NCBI RefSeq assembly: GCF_009674585.1
Contig: NZ_WKJP01000001.1
Coordinates: 558,001 to 622,000, forward strand
Direction of reading: 5' to 3'
Source of the DNA: Haloferax marinisediminis
GTDB lineage: Archaea > Halobacteriota > Halobacteria > Halobacteriales > Haloferacaceae
DNA: 64,000 nucleotides
In this document: piece after piece, positions 55,501-63,032 of the stretch
Position numbering within the stretch: the stretch's first letter is position 1
Layout of the letters: every line of letters starts with the position of its first letter
The notes under the pieces: model-generated
What the model was told of the DNA's origin: nothing
The model's input: the letters and a program-made list of their open reading frames with translations, nothing else
The model's database searches: none
Made by a program: the position numbers and the translations under genes

Positions 55501-55567
55501 ATCGACGGGTTCGGACCGCTCTGTCGCCGAGTGACTCGACTGAGGCGAACGTTGCGGTGCCGAAAGA

Positions 55568-55575
55568 ATTTAATA
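55568..55575 (+). promoter_or_regulatory. TATA box of the Arg-rich leader ORF
   Basis: TTTAATAT at 55569-55576 (allowing one base) lies about 30 bases before the ATG at 55603, fitting a nearly leaderless transcript that would begin at the short ORF rather than at argG. Confidence 0.5.
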
Positions 55576-55602: not shown

Positions 55603-55680
55603 ATGGCGACTCGCAGCACCTTCGCCACTTTTGCCCCGCTGCGAGCCGCTGCTGTCCGACGACGACGACCGGCCCTTTAG
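55603..55680 (+). CDS. 25-residue Arg-rich leader-like ORF upstream of argG
   Basis: Short ORF beginning MATRSTFATFAPL and ending VRRRRPAL, located 136 bases before argG. Four consecutive arginine codons, all CGA (55657-55668), precede Pro-Ala-Leu-stop. A hairpin overlaps the end of the ORF. A TATA element sits about 30 bases upstream of the ATG. Six of 25 residues are Arg. The arrangement recalls bacterial leader peptides that sense charged tRNA, but no archaeal attenuator of this kind is known to me; it may also be a small regulatory peptide. Nothing shows that it is translated. Confidence 0.55.
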   Translation: MATRSTFATFAPLRAAAVRRRRPAL

Positions 55681-55684
55681 GGCC
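55671..55684 (+). promoter_or_regulatory. Hairpin spanning the leader ORF stop codon
   Basis: GGCCC-TTTA-GGGCC forms a 5-base GC stem with a 4-base loop. The 5' arm lies in the last codons of the Arg-rich ORF and the stop codon TAG in the loop and 3' arm. A ribosome stalled on the CGA codons just upstream would cover it. Confidence 0.55.
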
Positions 55685-55742
55685 AGAATCATCATATCCT
55701 TCGGGACACGTCGAAATTTCTAATCTCCAGTTTTCTTGGCTA

Positions 55743-55807
55743 TAGGCATCTCTACCACTTAATTTCACAGAATGAATGCAAAGAATTTATTTAGGTATCC
55801 CTACCAC
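55743..55807 (+). promoter_or_regulatory. Paired 16-base operator-like repeat bracketing the argG TATA box
   Basis: TAGGCATCTCTACCAC (55743-55758) and TAGGTATCCCTACCAC (55792-55807) match at 14 of 16 positions, centres 49 bases apart. The second contains the dyad GGTA-N4-TACC. Between them TTTATTTAGG (55786-55795) is the argG TATA box, about 26 bases before the leaderless ATG. The downstream repeat therefore covers the region between TATA box and start site, fitting repressor binding. Confidence 0.6.
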
Positions 55808-55815
55808 AGACGAGT

Positions 55816-57033
55816 ATGAAGAAAGTCGCACTCGCGTTCTCCGGCGGACTCGACACCACAATCTGCGTCCCAATCCTCAAAGAGGAGTACGGATACGACG
55901 AAGTCATCGGCGTCACCGTCGACGTCGGTCAGCCCGAAGAAGAGTTCGACGAGGCCTACGAGACGGCCGAAGCACTCGGACTCGAACACTACGTCATCGA
56001 CGCGAAAGACGAGTTCGCCGAACTCTGTCTCGACTCCGTCACCGCAAACGCGGACTATCAGGGCTATCCCCTCGGGACAGCGCTCGCACGCCCGGTCATC
56101 GCGAATGCCATCCTCGACCTCGCACTCGAAGAGGACTGTGACGGCATCGCCCACGGGTGTACGGGTAAAGGAAACGACCAGCTGCGCTTCGAAGCAGTCT
56201 GGCGTGCCTCTGACCTCGAAGTCATCGCCCCCGTCCGCGAGATGGGCATGACCCGCGAGTGGGAAATCGAGTACGCCGCCGAGAAAGACCTCCCAGTGCA
56301 GGGAGGCAACGAAGGCGTCTGGTCCATCGACACGAACCTCTGGAGCCGTTCCATCGAGGGCGGCAACCTCGAAGACCCCGGCTACGTCCCGCCGGAAGAC
56401 ATCTACGAGTGGACCGACCAGCCCTCGGGCGAGACGGAACTCATCGAGATTACGTTCGAAGATGGCTACCCGGTCGCCATCGACGGCGACGAGATGGAGC
56501 CCCTCGAACTCATCGCCTTCCTCAACGAGAAAGCCGGTTCGTACGGCGTCGGCCGCACGGACATGATGGAAGACCGCATGCTCGGCCTGAAGGTGCGCGA
56601 GAACTACGAGCACCCGGCCGCGACGACGCTCCTCAACGCGCACAAGGCGCTCGAAGGCCTCGTCCTCACGAAAGAAGAGCGTGACTTCAAGGCCACCGTC
56701 GACAACGAGTGGTCCCAGAAGGCCTACGAGGGCCTCATCGACGCCCCGCTCGTGGGTGCGCTCGAAGGCTTCATCGAGAAGACCCAAGAGCGCGTCACGG
56801 GCACTGTGACCATCAAGTTCGAGGGCGGACAGGCCCGCCCGGTCGGCCGCGAGTCCGAGTACGCTGCCTACTCCGAGTCCGCCGCCTCCTTCAACACGGA
56901 GACGGTCGACGGCATCGAGCAGGCCGACGCCACGGGCGTCGCCAAGTACCACGGCTTCCAGGCACGCCTCGCGAACCAGAGCACGAAGAAAGAAAAGCCA
57001 GAACTGGCCGCCGACGGCGGCAGCGACGAGTAA
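55816..57033 (+). CDS. argG: Argininosuccinate synthase
   Basis: ATP-dependent enzyme joining citrulline and aspartate to argininosuccinate, 405 residues. The PP-loop FSGGLDTT is at residues 8-15, and GYPLGTALARPVIA, GKGNDQLRFE and MTREWEIEYA follow as in the family. The start ATG at 55816 has its own TATA box about 26 bases upstream, so argG can be transcribed apart from the short ORF ahead of it. argH begins one base after its stop. Confidence 0.97.
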   Translation: MKKVALAFSGGLDTTICVPILKEEYGYDEVIGVTVDVGQPEEEFDEAYETAEALGLEHYVIDAKDEFAELCLDSVTANADYQGYPLGTALARPVIANAILDLALEEDCDGIAHGCTGKGNDQLRFEAVWRASDLEVIAPVREMGMTREWEIEYAAEKDLPVQGGNEGVWSIDTNLWSRSIEGGNLEDPGYVPPEDIYEWTDQPSGETELIEITFEDGYPVAIDGDEMEPLELIAFLNEKAGSYGVGRTDMMEDRMLGLKVRENYEHPAATTLLNAHKALEGLVLTKEERDFKATVDNEWSQKAYEGLIDAPLVGALEGFIEKTQERVTGTVTIKFEGGQARPVGRESEYAAYSESAASFNTETVDGIEQADATGVAKYHGFQARLANQSTKKEKPELAADGGSDE

Positions 57034-57034
57034 G

Positions 57035-58501
57035 ATGACAGGCGAGGACGGTGACTCCGAGAGCGTCATTCGCCGGGACCGCTTCAGCGGCGGCCCCGCC
57101 CGCGGGTTCATGTCGAGTCTCGCGGCAGACGAACGCATCTTCGAGGCCGACCTCGCCGTCGACCGGGCGCACGTGGTGATGCTCGCGGCACAGGACATCA
57201 TCGAGTCCGACGTCGCCGCAGACATCCTCGACGCGCTTGACGACGTGGAAGCCGCCGGCCACGAGTCACTCTCCGGCGGCGAAGACGTGCACGAAGCCAT
57301 CGAAGCGGCCGTCATCGACATCGTCGGCCCCGACGGTGGGAAGATGCACACCGCGCGCTCGCGCAACGACGAGGTTGCGACGTGTATCCGCTACCGCCTC
57401 CGCGAGGACGTACTGGAGGCACTCGACGCCGCCCTCGCACTGCGCGAATCGCTCGTCGAGACGGCGGCAGCACACACCGAGACGGTGATGCCCGGGTACA
57501 CACACCTGCAACCCGCCCAACCGACGACGGTTGCGCACTTTCTGCTCTCGTACGAACGGGCGGTCGCCCGCGACTGCGCCCGCCTCATGTGTGCGTACGA
57601 GCGTATCAACCAGTCACCCCTCGGGTCGGCCGCCTTCGCGGGGACACCGTTCGACGTGAACCGCGAACTCGTCGCCGACCTCCTCGGGTTCGACAGCGTG
57701 ATGGAGAACTCGATGGACGCCTCTGCGACGCGCGACTTCCTCGCGGAGACGCTCGGGGCGCTGACGACACACGCCATCACGCTCTCGGGACTCGCCGAAG
57801 ACCTCGTCATCTTCTCGAACAAGGGCTTCGTCGAACTCTCGGACGACTACTCGTCGACGTCGTCTATCATGCCCCAGAAGAAGAACCCCGACACGATGGA
57901 ACTCGTCCGCGCCGTCGCGGGCGACGCCGTCGGGGAACTCACCGGGCTCTTGACGACGCTCAAAGGACTGCCGCGCGCGTACAACCGCGACTTACAACGC
58001 GCGCACAAGCACGCGTTCCGCGCCGTGGACGACGTATCCGAAGCGGCCGCCGTGGCCGCCGGTGCCGTCGCCTCCGCGACGTGGCCCGAAGACGAACTCG
58101 CCGCGGCCGCCGGAGACGGCTTTTCGACGGCGACGGGCGTCGCGGACCTGCTCGCGATGGCGGGGCTACCGTTCCGCACGGCCCACGAAGTCGTCGCCGA
58201 GGCCGCCGCCCGGTCCACGGGAACGCCAGACGTGGCAACACTTGACGCCGTCGCTACGGACGTATTAGGTGAGTCTCTCTTTACGCACGTGACAGCAGAC
58301 GCCGTCGAAGCCGCGCTCGATCCGACCGAGAGCGTGGCGAGTCGCGATTCGGTCGGTGGGCCCGCGCCCGCCGCCGTCGAATCGACGCTCTCGACGGCCC
58401 GTGACGACCTCTCGGCGGACTACGCTGCCGTCGCGGACGCCCGCGACACGCTTACGGCCGCTGCCGACGAACTCGACGAGGAGGTATCGAGCTATGTCTG
58501 A
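57035..58501 (+). CDS. argH: Argininosuccinate lyase
   Basis: Splits argininosuccinate to arginine and fumarate; 488 residues. The fumarase-superfamily signature TSSIMPQKKNPDTMEL is intact, with HTARSRNDEVAT and GYTHLQPAQPTTVAH. The C-terminal 70 residues, rich in Ala and Asp, extend slightly beyond bacterial enzymes. It is co-transcribed with argG. Its stop codon is overlapped by an Arg-rich ORF in another frame. Confidence 0.96.
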   Translation: MTGEDGDSESVIRRDRFSGGPARGFMSSLAADERIFEADLAVDRAHVVMLAAQDIIESDVAADILDALDDVEAAGHESLSGGEDVHEAIEAAVIDIVGPDGGKMHTARSRNDEVATCIRYRLREDVLEALDAALALRESLVETAAAHTETVMPGYTHLQPAQPTTVAHFLLSYERAVARDCARLMCAYERINQSPLGSAAFAGTPFDVNRELVADLLGFDSVMENSMDASATRDFLAETLGALTTHAITLSGLAEDLVIFSNKGFVELSDDYSSTSSIMPQKKNPDTMELVRAVAGDAVGELTGLLTTLKGLPRAYNRDLQRAHKHAFRAVDDVSEAAAVAAGAVASATWPEDELAAAAGDGFSTATGVADLLAMAGLPFRTAHEVVAEAAARSTGTPDVATLDAVATDVLGESLFTHVTADAVEAALDPTESVASRDSVGGPAPAAVESTLSTARDDLSADYAAVADARDTLTAAADELDEEVSSYV

Positions 58502-58809: not shown

Positions 58810-58989
58810 ATGAGCGACACCATCACTGCGGAAGACCCGCTGAGCGGAGAAGAAATCGAGCTGCCGGCCGACGTCGAAGTCGGCGAAATCATCGACAGTC
58901 CTGCCACAGGCGCAGAACTAGAGGTCGTCTCCCTCGACCCCGTCGTGCTCGAGGAAGCACCTGAACTCGAAGAGGATTGGGGAGAGTAA
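58810..58989 (+). CDS. lysW: LysW/ArgW amino-group carrier protein lacking zinc cysteines
   Basis: Small acidic carrier (59 residues) whose C-terminal Glu is joined to the amino group of glutamate (and in some archaea 2-aminoadipate), shielding it during arginine or lysine synthesis. The tail ELEEDWGE holds the conserved EDWGE end, and EVVSLDPVVLEEAPELEE matches the family. However, the usual zinc ribbon with four Cys (CPxCG and CxxCG) is gone: the corresponding stretches read EDPLSG and SPATGAE, with no Cys anywhere in the protein. It presumably folds without zinc, perhaps relying on salt and acidity. It heads the operon with argX. Confidence 0.9.
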   Translation: MSDTITAEDPLSGEEIELPADVEVGEIIDSPATGAELEVVSLDPVVLEEAPELEEDWGE

Positions 58990-58990
58990 C

Positions 58991-59866
58991 GTGCATATTG
59001 GACTGCTCTACTCCCGGATTCGCCGCGACGAGAAGTTGCTCCTCAACGAGCTCCGCGAGCGCGGCCACGAGGTGACGAAGATAGACGTTCGGAAAGAGCA
59101 GTTCGACCTCACCGAGCCGCCGGCGGCGTTCGACGGCGTCGACATCGTGGTCGACAGGTGTCTGGCGACGAGCAGGAGCCTCTACATCACGCGCTTCCTG
59201 CAGTCGTACGGCATCCCCGTCGTCAACTCACACGAGACGGCAGACATCTGCGCCGACAAGGCGAAGAACAGTCTCGCACTCGCGGATGCGGGCGTCCCCA
59301 CGCCCAACACGAAAGTCGCGTTCACCGTCGAATCGGCGATGGAAATCGTCGAAGAGTTCGGCTACCCCTGCGTCCTCAAGCCCGTCGTCGGGTCGTGGGG
59401 ACGTCTGATGGCGAAAATCGACTCCGAAGCGGCCGCCGAGGCGATTTTAGAGCACAAGGCGACGCTCGGAAACTACGAACACAAGGTGTTCTACATCCAG
59501 GAGTTCGTCGAGAAACCCGGTCGCGACATTCGCGTCCTCGCCGTCGATGGTGAACCCATCGCCGCGATGACTCGAACCTCGGACCACTGGCTCACGAACG
59601 CCGCGAAAGGCGCCGACGCCGAAGCGTTCGAACTCGACGACCGCGCGAAAGAACTCGTGAAGCAGGCGTCCGATGCAGTCGGCGGCGGCCTGCTCGGCGT
59701 CGACCTCATGGAGACCGGTGACGACTACACCGTCCACGAGGTCAACCACACGGTCGAGTTCAAAGCACTCAACGACGCGGTCGACGTGGACGTTCCCGCG
59801 AAGGTCGTCGATTGGCTGGAGACGAAAGTCGACGGCGAAAAGACGCTCGCGGAGGTTTCGGCGTGA
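58991..59866 (+). CDS. argX: LysW-glutamate (or aminoadipate) ligase, ArgX/LysX
   Basis: ATP-grasp ligase that joins the amino group of glutamate to the C-terminus of LysW; 291 residues. The ATP-grasp core is seen in YPCVLKPVVGSWGRLMAKIDS and FYIQEFVEKPGRDIRVLAVDG, and the Mg-binding end in VHEVNHTVEFK. GTG at 58991 starts one base after the lysW stop, and argC overlaps its end by 4 bases. Only argGH and a carboxylate-linked arginine set are present here, so glutamate for arginine is the main expected substrate; use for lysine cannot be excluded. Confidence 0.93.
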   Translation: MHIGLLYSRIRRDEKLLLNELRERGHEVTKIDVRKEQFDLTEPPAAFDGVDIVVDRCLATSRSLYITRFLQSYGIPVVNSHETADICADKAKNSLALADAGVPTPNTKVAFTVESAMEIVEEFGYPCVLKPVVGSWGRLMAKIDSEAAAEAILEHKATLGNYEHKVFYIQEFVEKPGRDIRVLAVDGEPIAAMTRTSDHWLTNAAKGADAEAFELDDRAKELVKQASDAVGGGLLGVDLMETGDDYTVHEVNHTVEFKALNDAVDVDVPAKVVDWLETKVDGEKTLAEVSA

Positions 59867-60906
59867 GCGAGGTACTCACAGCAGGTGTCGTCGGTGGCTC
59901 TGGATTCACCGGCGGTGAACTGCTCCGTCTCCTCGATGGACACCCGAACTTCGAGATCGCACAGGCCACGAGCCGCTCCTACGAGCGCAAGACCATCGGC
60001 CACGTCCATCCGAACCTTCGTCACCTCGACGTGCGCTTTACCTCACCCGAGGACCTCGAATCGGTCGACGTGCTGTTTACGGCGACACCGCACGGCGTCT
60101 CGATGGAACACATCGACGAGTTCCAGGACGCCGCCGACACCGTCGTGGACCTCTCTGCCGACTTCAGACTCTCCGAAGAAGCACAGTACGACCAGTGGTA
60201 CGACGGGCACACGTGCCCCGAATATCTCGAAAAGTCGGAGTACGCGCTTCCCGAACTGAATCGCGAGAACCTCCCCGGTGCGGACCTCATCGCCGCGGGC
60301 GGGTGTAACGCGACTGCGACGATTCTCGGGCTGAAACCACTTTTCGACGCCGACATCCTCTCCGGTGACGAGCAGGTCGTCGTCGACGTGAAAGTCGGGT
60401 CGTCCGAAGGTGGCGCGGGCGCGAGCAAGGCGTCGTCACACGCCGAGCGCTCCGGAATCGTCCGCCCCTACGCCCCGACCGGCCACCGTCACGAGGCCGA
60501 AATCGAGGAGTTCCTCGGCCTCTCTGTCTCCTTTACCGTCCACGCAGTGGACATGGTCCGCGGTGCGGCGGCGACCTGTCACGTCTTCCCCGACGGACCA
60601 GTGTCGAAAGGCGACATGTGGAAGGCCTACAGAGGAAGCTACGGCGACGAACCGTTCATGCGCACCGTCGCCGGCGGCGGTGGCGTCTACCGCTACCCCG
60701 AACCGAAGGCCGTCGCAGGCACCAACTTCGGCGAAGTCGGCTTCGAAATCGACCCCTCGAACCGCCGACTCGTCGTGTTTTCGGCCATCGACAACATGAT
60801 GAAAGGCTCTGCCGGGCAGGCAGTCCACGCCGCCAACATCGCACTCGGCTTCGACGAGACGGCCGGCCTCGACTTCACTGGCTTCCACCCGATTGGGTCT
60901 CCCTGA
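59863..60906 (+). CDS. argC: [LysW]-gamma-glutamyl phosphate reductase, ArgC/LysY
   Basis: NADP-dependent reductase of carrier-bound glutamyl phosphate to the semialdehyde, 347 residues. The N-terminal GVVGGSGFTGGELLRLL is the dinucleotide motif, and catalytic Cys is in GGCNATATILGL. GTG at 59863 (MSEVLTAGVV) is supported by the four-base overlap with argX. It lies 57 bases before argB. Confidence 0.94.
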   Translation: MSEVLTAGVVGGSGFTGGELLRLLDGHPNFEIAQATSRSYERKTIGHVHPNLRHLDVRFTSPEDLESVDVLFTATPHGVSMEHIDEFQDAADTVVDLSADFRLSEEAQYDQWYDGHTCPEYLEKSEYALPELNRENLPGADLIAAGGCNATATILGLKPLFDADILSGDEQVVVDVKVGSSEGGAGASKASSHAERSGIVRPYAPTGHRHEAEIEEFLGLSVSFTVHAVDMVRGAAATCHVFPDGPVSKGDMWKAYRGSYGDEPFMRTVAGGGGVYRYPEPKAVAGTNFGEVGFEIDPSNRRLVVFSAIDNMMKGSAGQAVHAANIALGFDETAGLDFTGFHPIGSP

Positions 60907-60963
60907 GCGTACCGTCCCCGAACACACCAGCTCCAGACCGACCACCAACGAACTACACCGACT

Positions 60964-61896
60964 ATGACAGGATACACACGCGAGGAACTGCTCGCGGCAC
61001 ACGAACAGCTCGTCGACAACGAGGCGAACCTCATCGCAGATGGGGGCCAAGAACCGCCAGTCGTCGTCAAGATTGGCGGCGCGAAAGCCGTCGACCCAGA
61101 GGGTGCCGTCGCAGACGTCGCACACCTCGTCGCCAACGGCACCGACGTCGTCGTCGTCCACGGCGGGTCCACTGCCGTCGACGAGACGCTCGAAGAACTC
61201 GGCGAGGAACCGACCTACGTCGAATCACCCTCGGGTGTGACCGGCCGCTTCACCGACGAGCGCACCATGGAGGTGTTCTCGATGGTGATGCCCGGCAAAC
61301 TCAACACCGACCTGACGGCGCTGTTCCGTGAGGCAGGCGTCGACGCGCTCGGCCTCTCTGGCGTGGACGGTGGACTCCTCACTGGCCCGCGCAAGTCGGC
61401 AGTTCGCGTCGTCGAGAACGGCAAGAAGAAGATCAAACGCGGCGACCACTCCGGGAAGATTACTTCGGTCAACGCGTCGCTCCTCGAAACCCTCCTCGAC
61501 GGCGGCTACACGCCAATCGTGACCGTCCCGATGCTCGCCGACGACGGTGTCCCAGTGAACGCGGACGCCGACCGTGCCGCAGCGGCAGTCGCGGGCGCAC
61601 TCGGCGCGAGACTCGTCGTCCTCACCGACGTGAAGGGCGTCTACGCCGACCCCGACGACGAATCGACGCTCATCGAGACGGCCGACACGCCCGAGGAGTT
61701 CGAGGCGCTCGAAGCGGCCGCAGAAGGCTTCATGACGAAGAAAGTCATGGCCGCGAAAGAAGCACTCACCGGCGGGGCCGCCGAAGTCATCGTCTCCGAT
61801 GCGAACCTGAACGACCCCATCGTGACGGCGCTCAACGGCGGCGGCACGCACGTGACGCCCGGTGCGCTGGTCGAAGCTGAGGAGGCCTCGCAATAA
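60964..61896 (+). CDS. argB: [LysW]-glutamate/aminoadipate kinase, ArgB/LysZ
   Basis: Amino-acid-kinase-family enzyme phosphorylating the carrier-bound glutamate, 310 residues. VVKIGGAKAV near residue 33, HGGSTAVDETLEEL, TDVKGVYADPD and the substrate-loop GFMTKKVMAAKEALTGG are typical of the N-acetylglutamate kinase relatives. In the LysW pathway it follows ArgX. Its stop overlaps argD by one base (TAATG). Confidence 0.94.
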   Translation: MTGYTREELLAAHEQLVDNEANLIADGGQEPPVVVKIGGAKAVDPEGAVADVAHLVANGTDVVVVHGGSTAVDETLEELGEEPTYVESPSGVTGRFTDERTMEVFSMVMPGKLNTDLTALFREAGVDALGLSGVDGGLLTGPRKSAVRVVENGKKKIKRGDHSGKITSVNASLLETLLDGGYTPIVTVPMLADDGVPVNADADRAAAAVAGALGARLVVLTDVKGVYADPDDESTLIETADTPEEFEALEAAAEGFMTKKVMAAKEALTGGAAEVIVSDANLNDPIVTALNGGGTHVTPGALVEAEEASQ

Positions 61897-63032
61897 TGTC
61901 AGGTTTCGTCTTCAGCGAGAAGCCCATCACCATCGAATCCGGTGAGGGTCCGTACCTCTATTCGGACGACGGAACCGAGTATCTCGACTTCGGCGCGAGT
62001 TACGCCGTCGCGGCACTCGGCCACTCGCACCCTGCGGTCACCTCCGCGATTCAGGAGCAGGCCGCGAAGTTGACCTACGTGCAGGCGTCGTATCCGGTCG
62101 AGGTTCGCACCGAACTGTACGAGAAACTCGCCGCACTCGCACCGGGCGACATCGAGAACGTCTGGCTCTGTAACTCCGGGACCGAGGCGAACGAAGCGGC
62201 GATGAAGTTCGCCCGCTCGGCGACCGGCCGCCAGAAGATTATCGCCACCAAACGCGCCTTCCACGGGCGCACCCTCGGTTCACTCGCGCTCACGTGGAAA
62301 CAGAAGTACAAGAAGCCGTACGAACCGGTCGCTGGCGGCGTCGAGTTCGTCACCTACGGCGACGAGGAAGAACTGGCAGAAGCCATCGACGACGAGACGG
62401 CCGCCGTCTTCCTCGAACCGATTCAGGGAGAGGGCGGCATCAACCCCGCTTCGGCGGAGTACCTACAGGCCGCCCGCGACCTGACCGAAGACGCGGGTGC
62501 AGCACTCGTCTTCGACGAGATTCAGACCGGAATCGGTCGCACTGGGTCGCTGTGGGCCTGCGAGAACGCCGGCGTCGTCCCCGACATTCTCACGAGTGCG
62601 AAAGGCATCGCCAACGGTCTCCCACTCGGCGCGACGCTCTGTGCCGACTGGATTGCCGACGGCGCGGCCTCCCACGGGTCGACGTTCTCCGGCGGTCCCG
62701 TCGTCTGTGCCGCCGCAAACGCCACCCTCGACACCATCGTCGAACAGGACATCCCCGGCCACGCAGCAGCGGTTGGGAACTACCTCACCAGCGAACTCGA
62801 AGCAGCCGTCGAGGAACACGACCTGCCAGTCCGCGAGGTCCGCGGCGAAGGTCTGATGATTGGCGTCGAGGTCAAACGCGGCGCGAACCGCACGCTGAAG
62901 CATCTCGCACTGTCCGAGCAGTTGCTCGCACTTCCGGCGGGGCGGACCGTCGTGCGGTTCCTCCCGCCACTCATCATCGAGGAAGAACACGCGGACCGCG
63001 CAGTGGATGCGATGACGAACGTGTTGTCATGA
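61896..63032 (+). CDS. argD: [LysW]-ornithine/lysine aminotransferase, ArgD/LysJ
   Basis: PLP class III aminotransferase making carrier-bound ornithine from the semialdehyde, 378 residues. GTEANEAAMKFARSATGR, VFDEIQTGIGRTGSLWA and the PLP lysine in TSAKGIANGLPLGAT are all present. The C-terminus is somewhat shorter than in free-acetylornithine aminotransferases. Coupled to argB and argE by overlapping start and stop codons. Confidence 0.95.
   Translation: MSGFVFSEKPITIESGEGPYLYSDDGTEYLDFGASYAVAALGHSHPAVTSAIQEQAAKLTYVQASYPVEVRTELYEKLAALAPGDIENVWLCNSGTEANEAAMKFARSATGRQKIIATKRAFHGRTLGSLALTWKQKYKKPYEPVAGGVEFVTYGDEEELAEAIDDETAAVFLEPIQGEGGINPASAEYLQAARDLTEDAGAALVFDEIQTGIGRTGSLWACENAGVVPDILTSAKGIANGLPLGATLCADWIADGAASHGSTFSGGPVVCAAANATLDTIVEQDIPGHAAAVGNYLTSELEAAVEEHDLPVREVRGEGLMIGVEVKRGANRTLKHLALSEQLLALPAGRTVVRFLPPLIIEEEHADRAVDAMTNVLS

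Follow-up and report, generated by a model that had tools for sequence, protein, structure and literature searches.

An arginine-rich leader element was found directly upstream of argG in Haloferax marinisediminis. We put the probability at about three in four that it acts as an attenuator of arginine biosynthesis through a leader peptide, sensing the charging state of tRNA-Arg. The element is class-wide in Halobacteria, far larger in extent than the first-pass annotation of this DNA could see. In the window, i.e. the whole stretch of 64,000 nucleotides that was analysed, the leader open reading frame (ORF) heads an arginine gene cluster, as indicated by the genes that follow it, namely argG, argH, argW and argX (-argC-argB-argD). 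The features identified, with the evidence for each, were as follows.

55560 to 55575, plus strand: upstream promoter P1, consisting of a BRE-like CCGAAAG and a TATA box, TTTAATA (from sequence; TTTAAT kept in all Haloferax).
55603 to 55680, plus strand: leaderless leader ORF of 25 codons, peptide MATRSTFATFAPLRAAAVRRRRPAL (frame kept in 14 of 14 other Haloferax).
55610 to 55645, plus strand: hairpin A within the ORF, CTCGCAGC (55610-55617) pairing with GCTGCGAG (55638-55645) (fold and compensatory change).
55657 to 55668, plus strand: control codons, four consecutive CGA (Arg) (from sequence).
55671 to 55684, plus strand: hairpin B, GGCCC (55671-55675)-TTTA-GGGCC (55680-55684), with the TAG across the loop edge (covariation).
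55685 to 55702, plus strand: G-poor unstructured tract directly 3′ of hairpin B (base counts across loci).
55731 to 55734, plus strand: T4 tract 46 nt past hairpin B, a possible U-tract terminator (Haloferax-specific position).
55742 to 55765, no strand assigned: block TATAGGCATCTCTACCACTTAATTT (TATAGGCATCTCTACC..TTAATTT) 5′ of P2, a possible regulator site (conserved in Haloferax).
55780 to 55793, plus strand: P2, the argG-proximal promoter AAAGAATTTATTTA, with its TATA at 55786-55793 (Haloferax comparison).
55816 to 57033, plus strand: argG, argininosuccinate synthase, predicted to be leaderless from P2 (NCBIfam NF010392, E 4.4e-200).
57035 to 58501, plus strand: argH, argininosuccinate lyase (TIGR00838, E 2.1e-141).
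58810 to 59866, plus strand: argW, LysW-type carrier (58810-58989), and argX, LysX-type ligase (58991-59866) (TIGR01206, TIGR02144).
59866 to 63032, plus strand: argC-, argB- and argD-like genes (assigned by reading ORFs, without profiles).

In P1, a purine-rich BRE-like stretch lies 5′ of the TATA box (TTTAATA, 55569-55575), and the leader ATG at 55603 is located 31 nt from the TATA centre, the spacing of leaderless haloarchaeal mRNAs. The transcription start suggested by this spacing would place the ORF at the very beginning of a leaderless mRNA, and its reading frame closes with a TAG at 55678-55680. The first-pass annotation had reported a 25-codon ORF with its own TATA box upstream of argG-argH, a 5-base GC hairpin across its stop and a separate TATA box for argG further down, and all of these were recovered, the hairpin as GGCCC-TTTA-GGGCC at 55671-55684 and the argG TATA at 55786-55793 ahead of the argG start at 55816. 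Its statement that the ORF ends in four CGA codons was correct for the codons themselves (55657-55668) and slightly loose as to the ending, because Pro-Ala-Leu codons still stand between the CGA run and the TAG stop. Hairpin A, which is longer than hairpin B, had been overlooked.

None of the 14 other Haloferax genomes has lost the ORF, either hairpin, the Arg codons or the promoter. In one Haloferax clade RPRRRAL replaces RRRRPAL, with four Arg codons kept at shifted positions; one species carries a +3 insertion within the ORF that retains the frame; and in two species the loop TTTA is changed to CTCA, with the stem kept, the stop lost at that place and a new stop located 9 nt downstream. Beyond the genus, a genome search together with a scan of single genomes, one for each species, gave 110 argG loci, of which 93 were distinct over the last 300 nt, spanning about 27 named genera of Halobacteria. 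The automatic leader test was passed by 91 of the 110, and reading the rest by eye revealed an Arg-rich ORF in each. Conservation of the ORF and of its Arg run among relatives, on which the first-pass annotation had staked its reading, is therefore seen in 14/14 other Haloferax and in 93/93 distinct haloarchaeal loci inspected, and no Arg-rich leader ORF was found ahead of argG in 20 Halobacteriota genomes from other classes. A canonical stop-codon hairpin was present in 89 of the 93 distinct loci (86 measured, plus L027, L073 and L077, in which the automatic test found the hairpin and the later picker chose another). Four loci of Halohasta/Halonotius type (L078, L079, L090 and L071) are diverged, having an Arg-rich ORF with QRRLRRLPRAG and lacking the canonical stop-codon hairpin.

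In most of the 93 loci a TATA-like box is located 25-31 nt 5′ of the leader ATG. The leaders vary in length from 12 to 87 codons and always end in the manner of RRRRPGR, RRPRRRAL, RRRPGSP or RRPGL immediately before the stop, with peptide bodies little alike between genera. It could be supposed that the ORF, being conserved and having its own promoter, codes for a small arginine-rich protein with a function of its own and is adjacent to argG by happenstance. This was rejected, and we hold it to be highly improbable, because between genera the N-terminal two thirds show no relationship; the lengths vary, the C-terminus is the sole common part, and the wobble positions of the body are constrained by hairpin A.

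Most argG leaders have 3-5 Arg within their last 12 codons. Of all Arg codons in the terminal twelve of the leaders, 72.6% are CGA, compared with 1.5% in the argG genes and 16.7% in the genes of the window, and AGA and AGG do not occur at all. Of the CGA trinucleotides within the 33 nt 5′ of the stem, 290 are in frame and 12 and 7 fall in the other two frames, a count to be read with the caution that ORF picking favoured Arg-rich frames and that CGA repeats stay in phase with themselves. The TATA-to-ATG spacing is independent of ORF picking and thus argues that the chosen leader starts are real. However much the peptide bodies diverge, Arg codons always stand immediately 5′ of the stem of hairpin B, the last of them ending 1-2 nt ahead of it in 78 of 86 loci.

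Pairing in hairpin B was examined in an alignment of 69 loci, in which its five pairs gave a covariation score of 0.190 versus 0.109 after shuffling, with 0/500 shuffles, which ignore relatedness, reaching the observed value; a sliding control also peaked at the true register, and 20 cells were changed on both sides. This count is conservative, since loci with longer stems were misaligned by MAFFT, and the arms were also tallied directly, yielding GGCCC/GGGCC, GGGCC/GGCCC, GGGGTC/GACCCC, CGGGCC/GGCCCG and others. In 76 of the 86 measured loci the loop and the stop codon overlap, and in the other 10 the stop lies closely 3′ of the hairpin. These observations also bear on the proposal that hairpin B and the CGA string form a binding site for a regulator, on RNA or DNA, with the reading frame being incidental. 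The motif CGACGACCGGGCC...GGCCCA is indeed conserved in sequence and CGA repeats are of low complexity, but the CGA codons keep the frame of a leaderless ATG over the whole range of ORF lengths, pairing is kept although the stem sequences vary widely, and the leaders of ilvB, pheS and trpS described below carry the matching amino acid rather than the argG motif; such a site is very unlikely to explain the element.

Directly 3′ of hairpin B, G makes up 4%, 1% and 1% of the bases in the first three 5-nt bins across loci and then 24%, the G-free run having a median of 16-17 nt versus 3.8 expected. A consistent T run after the stem is absent across loci; only Haloferax has a T4-T5, further downstream. 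Since hairpin B is short and lacks a U tract, a terminator of the bacterial intrinsic type was ruled out. The T4-T5 itself, which every one of the 14 distinct Haloferax loci has at +45 to +47, was considered as a U-tract terminator and rejected, being consistent only in Haloferax and 46 nt downstream.

Hairpin A shows a compensatory change, CTCGCAGT/ACTGCGAG, in three Haloferax species (L009, L013 and L014). Over 84 loci the leader ORF bodies had a mean folding z of -1.40, and the longest 5′-proximal stem in the body measured 8.4 bp versus 6.6 bp in codon shuffles. The position of hairpin A is shared by different genera despite unrelated stem sequences, and a second hairpin is found in most loci. 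The whole-leader fold of the window genome (z -0.47) was no more stable than shuffles. Predicted folds place hairpins A and B side by side, and a mutually exclusive antiterminator pairing was not identified in them. In Halorubrum, in Natronocalculus and in the minimum-energy fold of the window genome, the CGA codons could pair with TCG repeats further downstream as an outer helix, which was discarded as inconsistent across genera.

It was also considered that CGA runs and GC hairpins arise easily in CG-rich DNA, so that the element might be a chance or compositional product of a GC-rich genome. A blind scan was made of 464 kb of the window genome (the window and twenty 20-kb stretches; 928 kb counting both strands), and twenty 20-kb stretches were also sampled from one relative. 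It returned 57 short ORFs with a leaderless-type TATA, only 5 of which had a stop-codon hairpin, and upon ranking by amino acid enrichment at the ORF end the argG leader came first and the pheS leader, found independently, came second. The combination is thus confined to 5 cases in 928 kb of strand sequence, and at one gene it is kept class-wide and is absent ahead of argG in the 20 genomes of other classes. A chance ORF was ruled out by the scan together with the conservation; no result of the analysis spoke for chance, which we regard as the least probable of the readings considered. Rfam covariance models gave no match at E <= 1 for six loci with Arg, branched-chain, Trp or Phe leaders.

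A P2-type TATA was recognised ahead of argG in 58 of the 93 loci, and about 31 have no recognisable second promoter. In these 31 or so the leader ORF is very probably carried on the argG mRNA, since no other promoter is seen there, which partly settles the earlier query whether the leader forms a separate small transcript or acts on read-through transcripts. Where P2 is present, it would give argG a leaderless mRNA of its own, and the share of transcripts that read through would be determined by the leader. The block at 55742-55765 recurs upstream of argG in Halobellus, Halegenticoccus and Halogeometricum, and other genera carry TAGCGTGCAGTCC where the Haloferax argG has this block; both are possible regulator sites.

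For the attenuator the following course of events is proposed. The leaderless mRNA would begin at the ATG of the short ORF, with the ribosome loading onto the 5′ end, and hairpin A in the ORF body would probably slow RNA polymerase, keeping ribosome and polymerase in step. The ribosome would then arrive at the clustered CGA codons, which are rare and are read by one tRNA-Arg. When charged tRNA-Arg is scarce, it would stall 1-2 nt ahead of hairpin B and cover the 5′ arm, hairpin B would fail to form, and transcription would run on into argG. When charged tRNA-Arg is plentiful, the ribosome would proceed to the stop in the hairpin B loop and come off; hairpin B would form, about 17 unstructured G-free bases would follow it, and transcription would end, either through hairpin B itself or through FttA/aCPSF1 acting on ribosome-free RNA. 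In H. volcanii, hairpins are located <=10 nt upstream of 503 termination sites (Berkemer et al. 2020, PMC7237163), one such hairpin tested in vivo halted 59% of transcripts (PMC7237163), and a proposal for archaeal FttA has it acting on RNA that ribosomes no longer protect (PMC11616081).

The output of the argG leader is probably transcription attenuation. A leader peptide that likewise senses Arg-tRNA might instead act after transcription, the stalled ribosome altering the stability of the mRNA or re-initiation at argG and not termination. In its favour are the approximately 31 loci without P2, where the 5′ UTRs are A/C-rich, apparently unstructured and, between leader stop and argG, 81-187 nt long, the G-free tract past the hairpin, which could be a landing site for ribosomes, and the lack of a U tract following hairpin B. 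Against it, genomes with P2 can make a leaderless argG mRNA for which an upstream ribosome is unneeded, and hairpin-associated termination is documented in H. volcanii (PMC7237163). We therefore consider a post-transcriptional output unlikely, with a somewhat better claim than a regulator-binding site. Counted against the attenuator were the shortness of hairpin B with no U tract behind it, the failure to identify an antiterminator, the unremarkable whole-leader fold, P2, which is present in 58/93 loci and would bypass the leader, argS, which is also linked to arginine and has no leader, the different layout of the second trpS leader and the absence of argG from the published table of H. volcanii upstream ORFs (PMC4983044), the last two being described below.

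Similar leaders were present at other amino acid genes. An upstream ORF ending in branched-chain codons precedes ilvB (acetolactate synthase) in 19 of 20 genomes. One such leader, MNQHDARLASAPPQSAASAADVAAVRSLIIVGA before its stop (L173:1173-1274; G000:C1 near 2035551), has the stop inside a GGGGC-ATA-GCCCC hairpin; the Haloferax ilvB leader ends in RSLIIVGA, adjoining the GGGGC...GCCCC stem with the TAG in the loop. The codon abutting the ilvB stem is GTA, which makes up 5% of the Val codons in the window genome. For pheS, an ORF ending in GFGFFF and two further residues (e.g., GFGFFFLTA) was found in 17 of 19 genomes, with the TGA in the hairpin loop in Haloferax; examples of these Phe-rich leaders are those at L215:762-848 and in L216-L232, such as MASEPERGARASEPTTDGFGFFFLTA. 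A second trpS, often plasmid-borne, was preceded by an ORF with WRW (CWRW) in 8 of 8 loci viewed (L139-L146, approximately 1-1.15 kb in). Its Trp codons are located between the inverted repeats TCCACTTCCC/GGGAAGTGGA (10-bp in Haloferax), and this layout differs from that of argG in having the control codons inside the stem-loop and no stop-codon hairpin. On a Haladaptatus halobius plasmid, a region 84% identical to the Trp leader DNA (L354:2501-2591) has no adjacent trpS and is possibly a remnant. Matching leaders were sought and not found ahead of hisG, trpC, trpD, hom, leuA and argS. In L255-L268, roughly 100 nt 5′ of the matched part of leuA, translation from the leaderless ATG of leuA1 would run through GRVLPGH in a frame other than that of leuA. 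The leuA frame itself lacks a start codon in several Haloferax, and every genus viewed carries an identical TCGAGTTCTTCCAGGGCAC, with a possible programmed +1 frameshift at CTT-CCA.

The earlier suggestion of a leader peptide sensing charged arginyl-tRNA is thus supported by the conservation, by the in-frame excess of CGA (290 versus 12 and 7) and by the leaders of ilvB, pheS and the second trpS. It seems to us rather probable, if less so than for argG itself, that Halobacteria possess general leader-peptide attenuators (for Arg, branched-chain amino acids, Phe and, in related form, Trp) whose deciding hairpin incorporates the stop codon of a leaderless upstream ORF.

In H. volcanii, mapping of transcription starts has revealed long 5′ UTRs with upstream ORFs before pheS (26 aa) and a Trp-tRNA ligase gene (23 aa) (Babski et al. 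2016, PMC4983044), and these lengths are those of most Haloferax leaders here. Exact identity with the ORFs of Table 2 of that report was not accepted: the lengths agree, and the molecular weights are slightly off, the peptides compared being those of relatives and not of H. volcanii. The section on these upstream ORFs treats them as small proteins only, with low isoelectric points noted and no tie to control codons, hairpins or attenuation; its table covers only leaders of 150-250 nt with ORFs of 15-31 aa, and argG and ilvB are absent from it (PMC4983044). With the H. volcanii hairpin termination sites, the leaders share a hairpin just upstream of the transcript end; regulated attenuators were not reported in that study (PMC7237163). 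Ribosome-mediated amino acid attenuation in archaea was not found in the open-licence literature searched, and an earlier mention of the leader ORF in work on the Haloferax small proteome or on archaeal ribosome profiling is possible. If Halobacteria do possess the general system, this kind of ribosome-mediated attenuation arose or was adapted in Archaea, which implies functional coupling of transcription and translation. A class-wide archaeal version would show ribosomes controlling transcription or mRNA fate in archaea, simple reporters in Haloferax volcanii would suffice to test the question of coupling in haloarchaea, and the leader ORFs would add to the small ORFs missed by genome annotation.

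In bacteria, the control of amino acid genes by attenuation through translating ribosomes is textbook knowledge. Like the bacterial attenuators trpL, hisL, ilvL and pheM, the haloarchaeal leaders have a short ORF with clustered codons for the pathway product, a conserved hairpin beside these codons and within reach of a ribosome stalled there, and hairpins placed such that a stalled ribosome would decide the folding; the genes they precede are biosynthetic operons or encode aminoacyl-tRNA synthetases, with pheS common to both. Unlike them, the haloarchaeal leaders have an archaeal promoter, a leaderless start, a stop codon inside the decisive hairpin and rare CGA or GTA codons, and they are without a U-tract terminator or an identified antiterminator; on account of these last two differences the argG leader was not filed as a classical attenuator. 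In attenuation of the Escherichia coli pyrBI type, a single hairpin can be blocked by a closely following ribosome, as would be the case in the argG leader, whereas the signal there is the speed of the polymerase (UTP), unlike the tRNA charging proposed for the argG leader.
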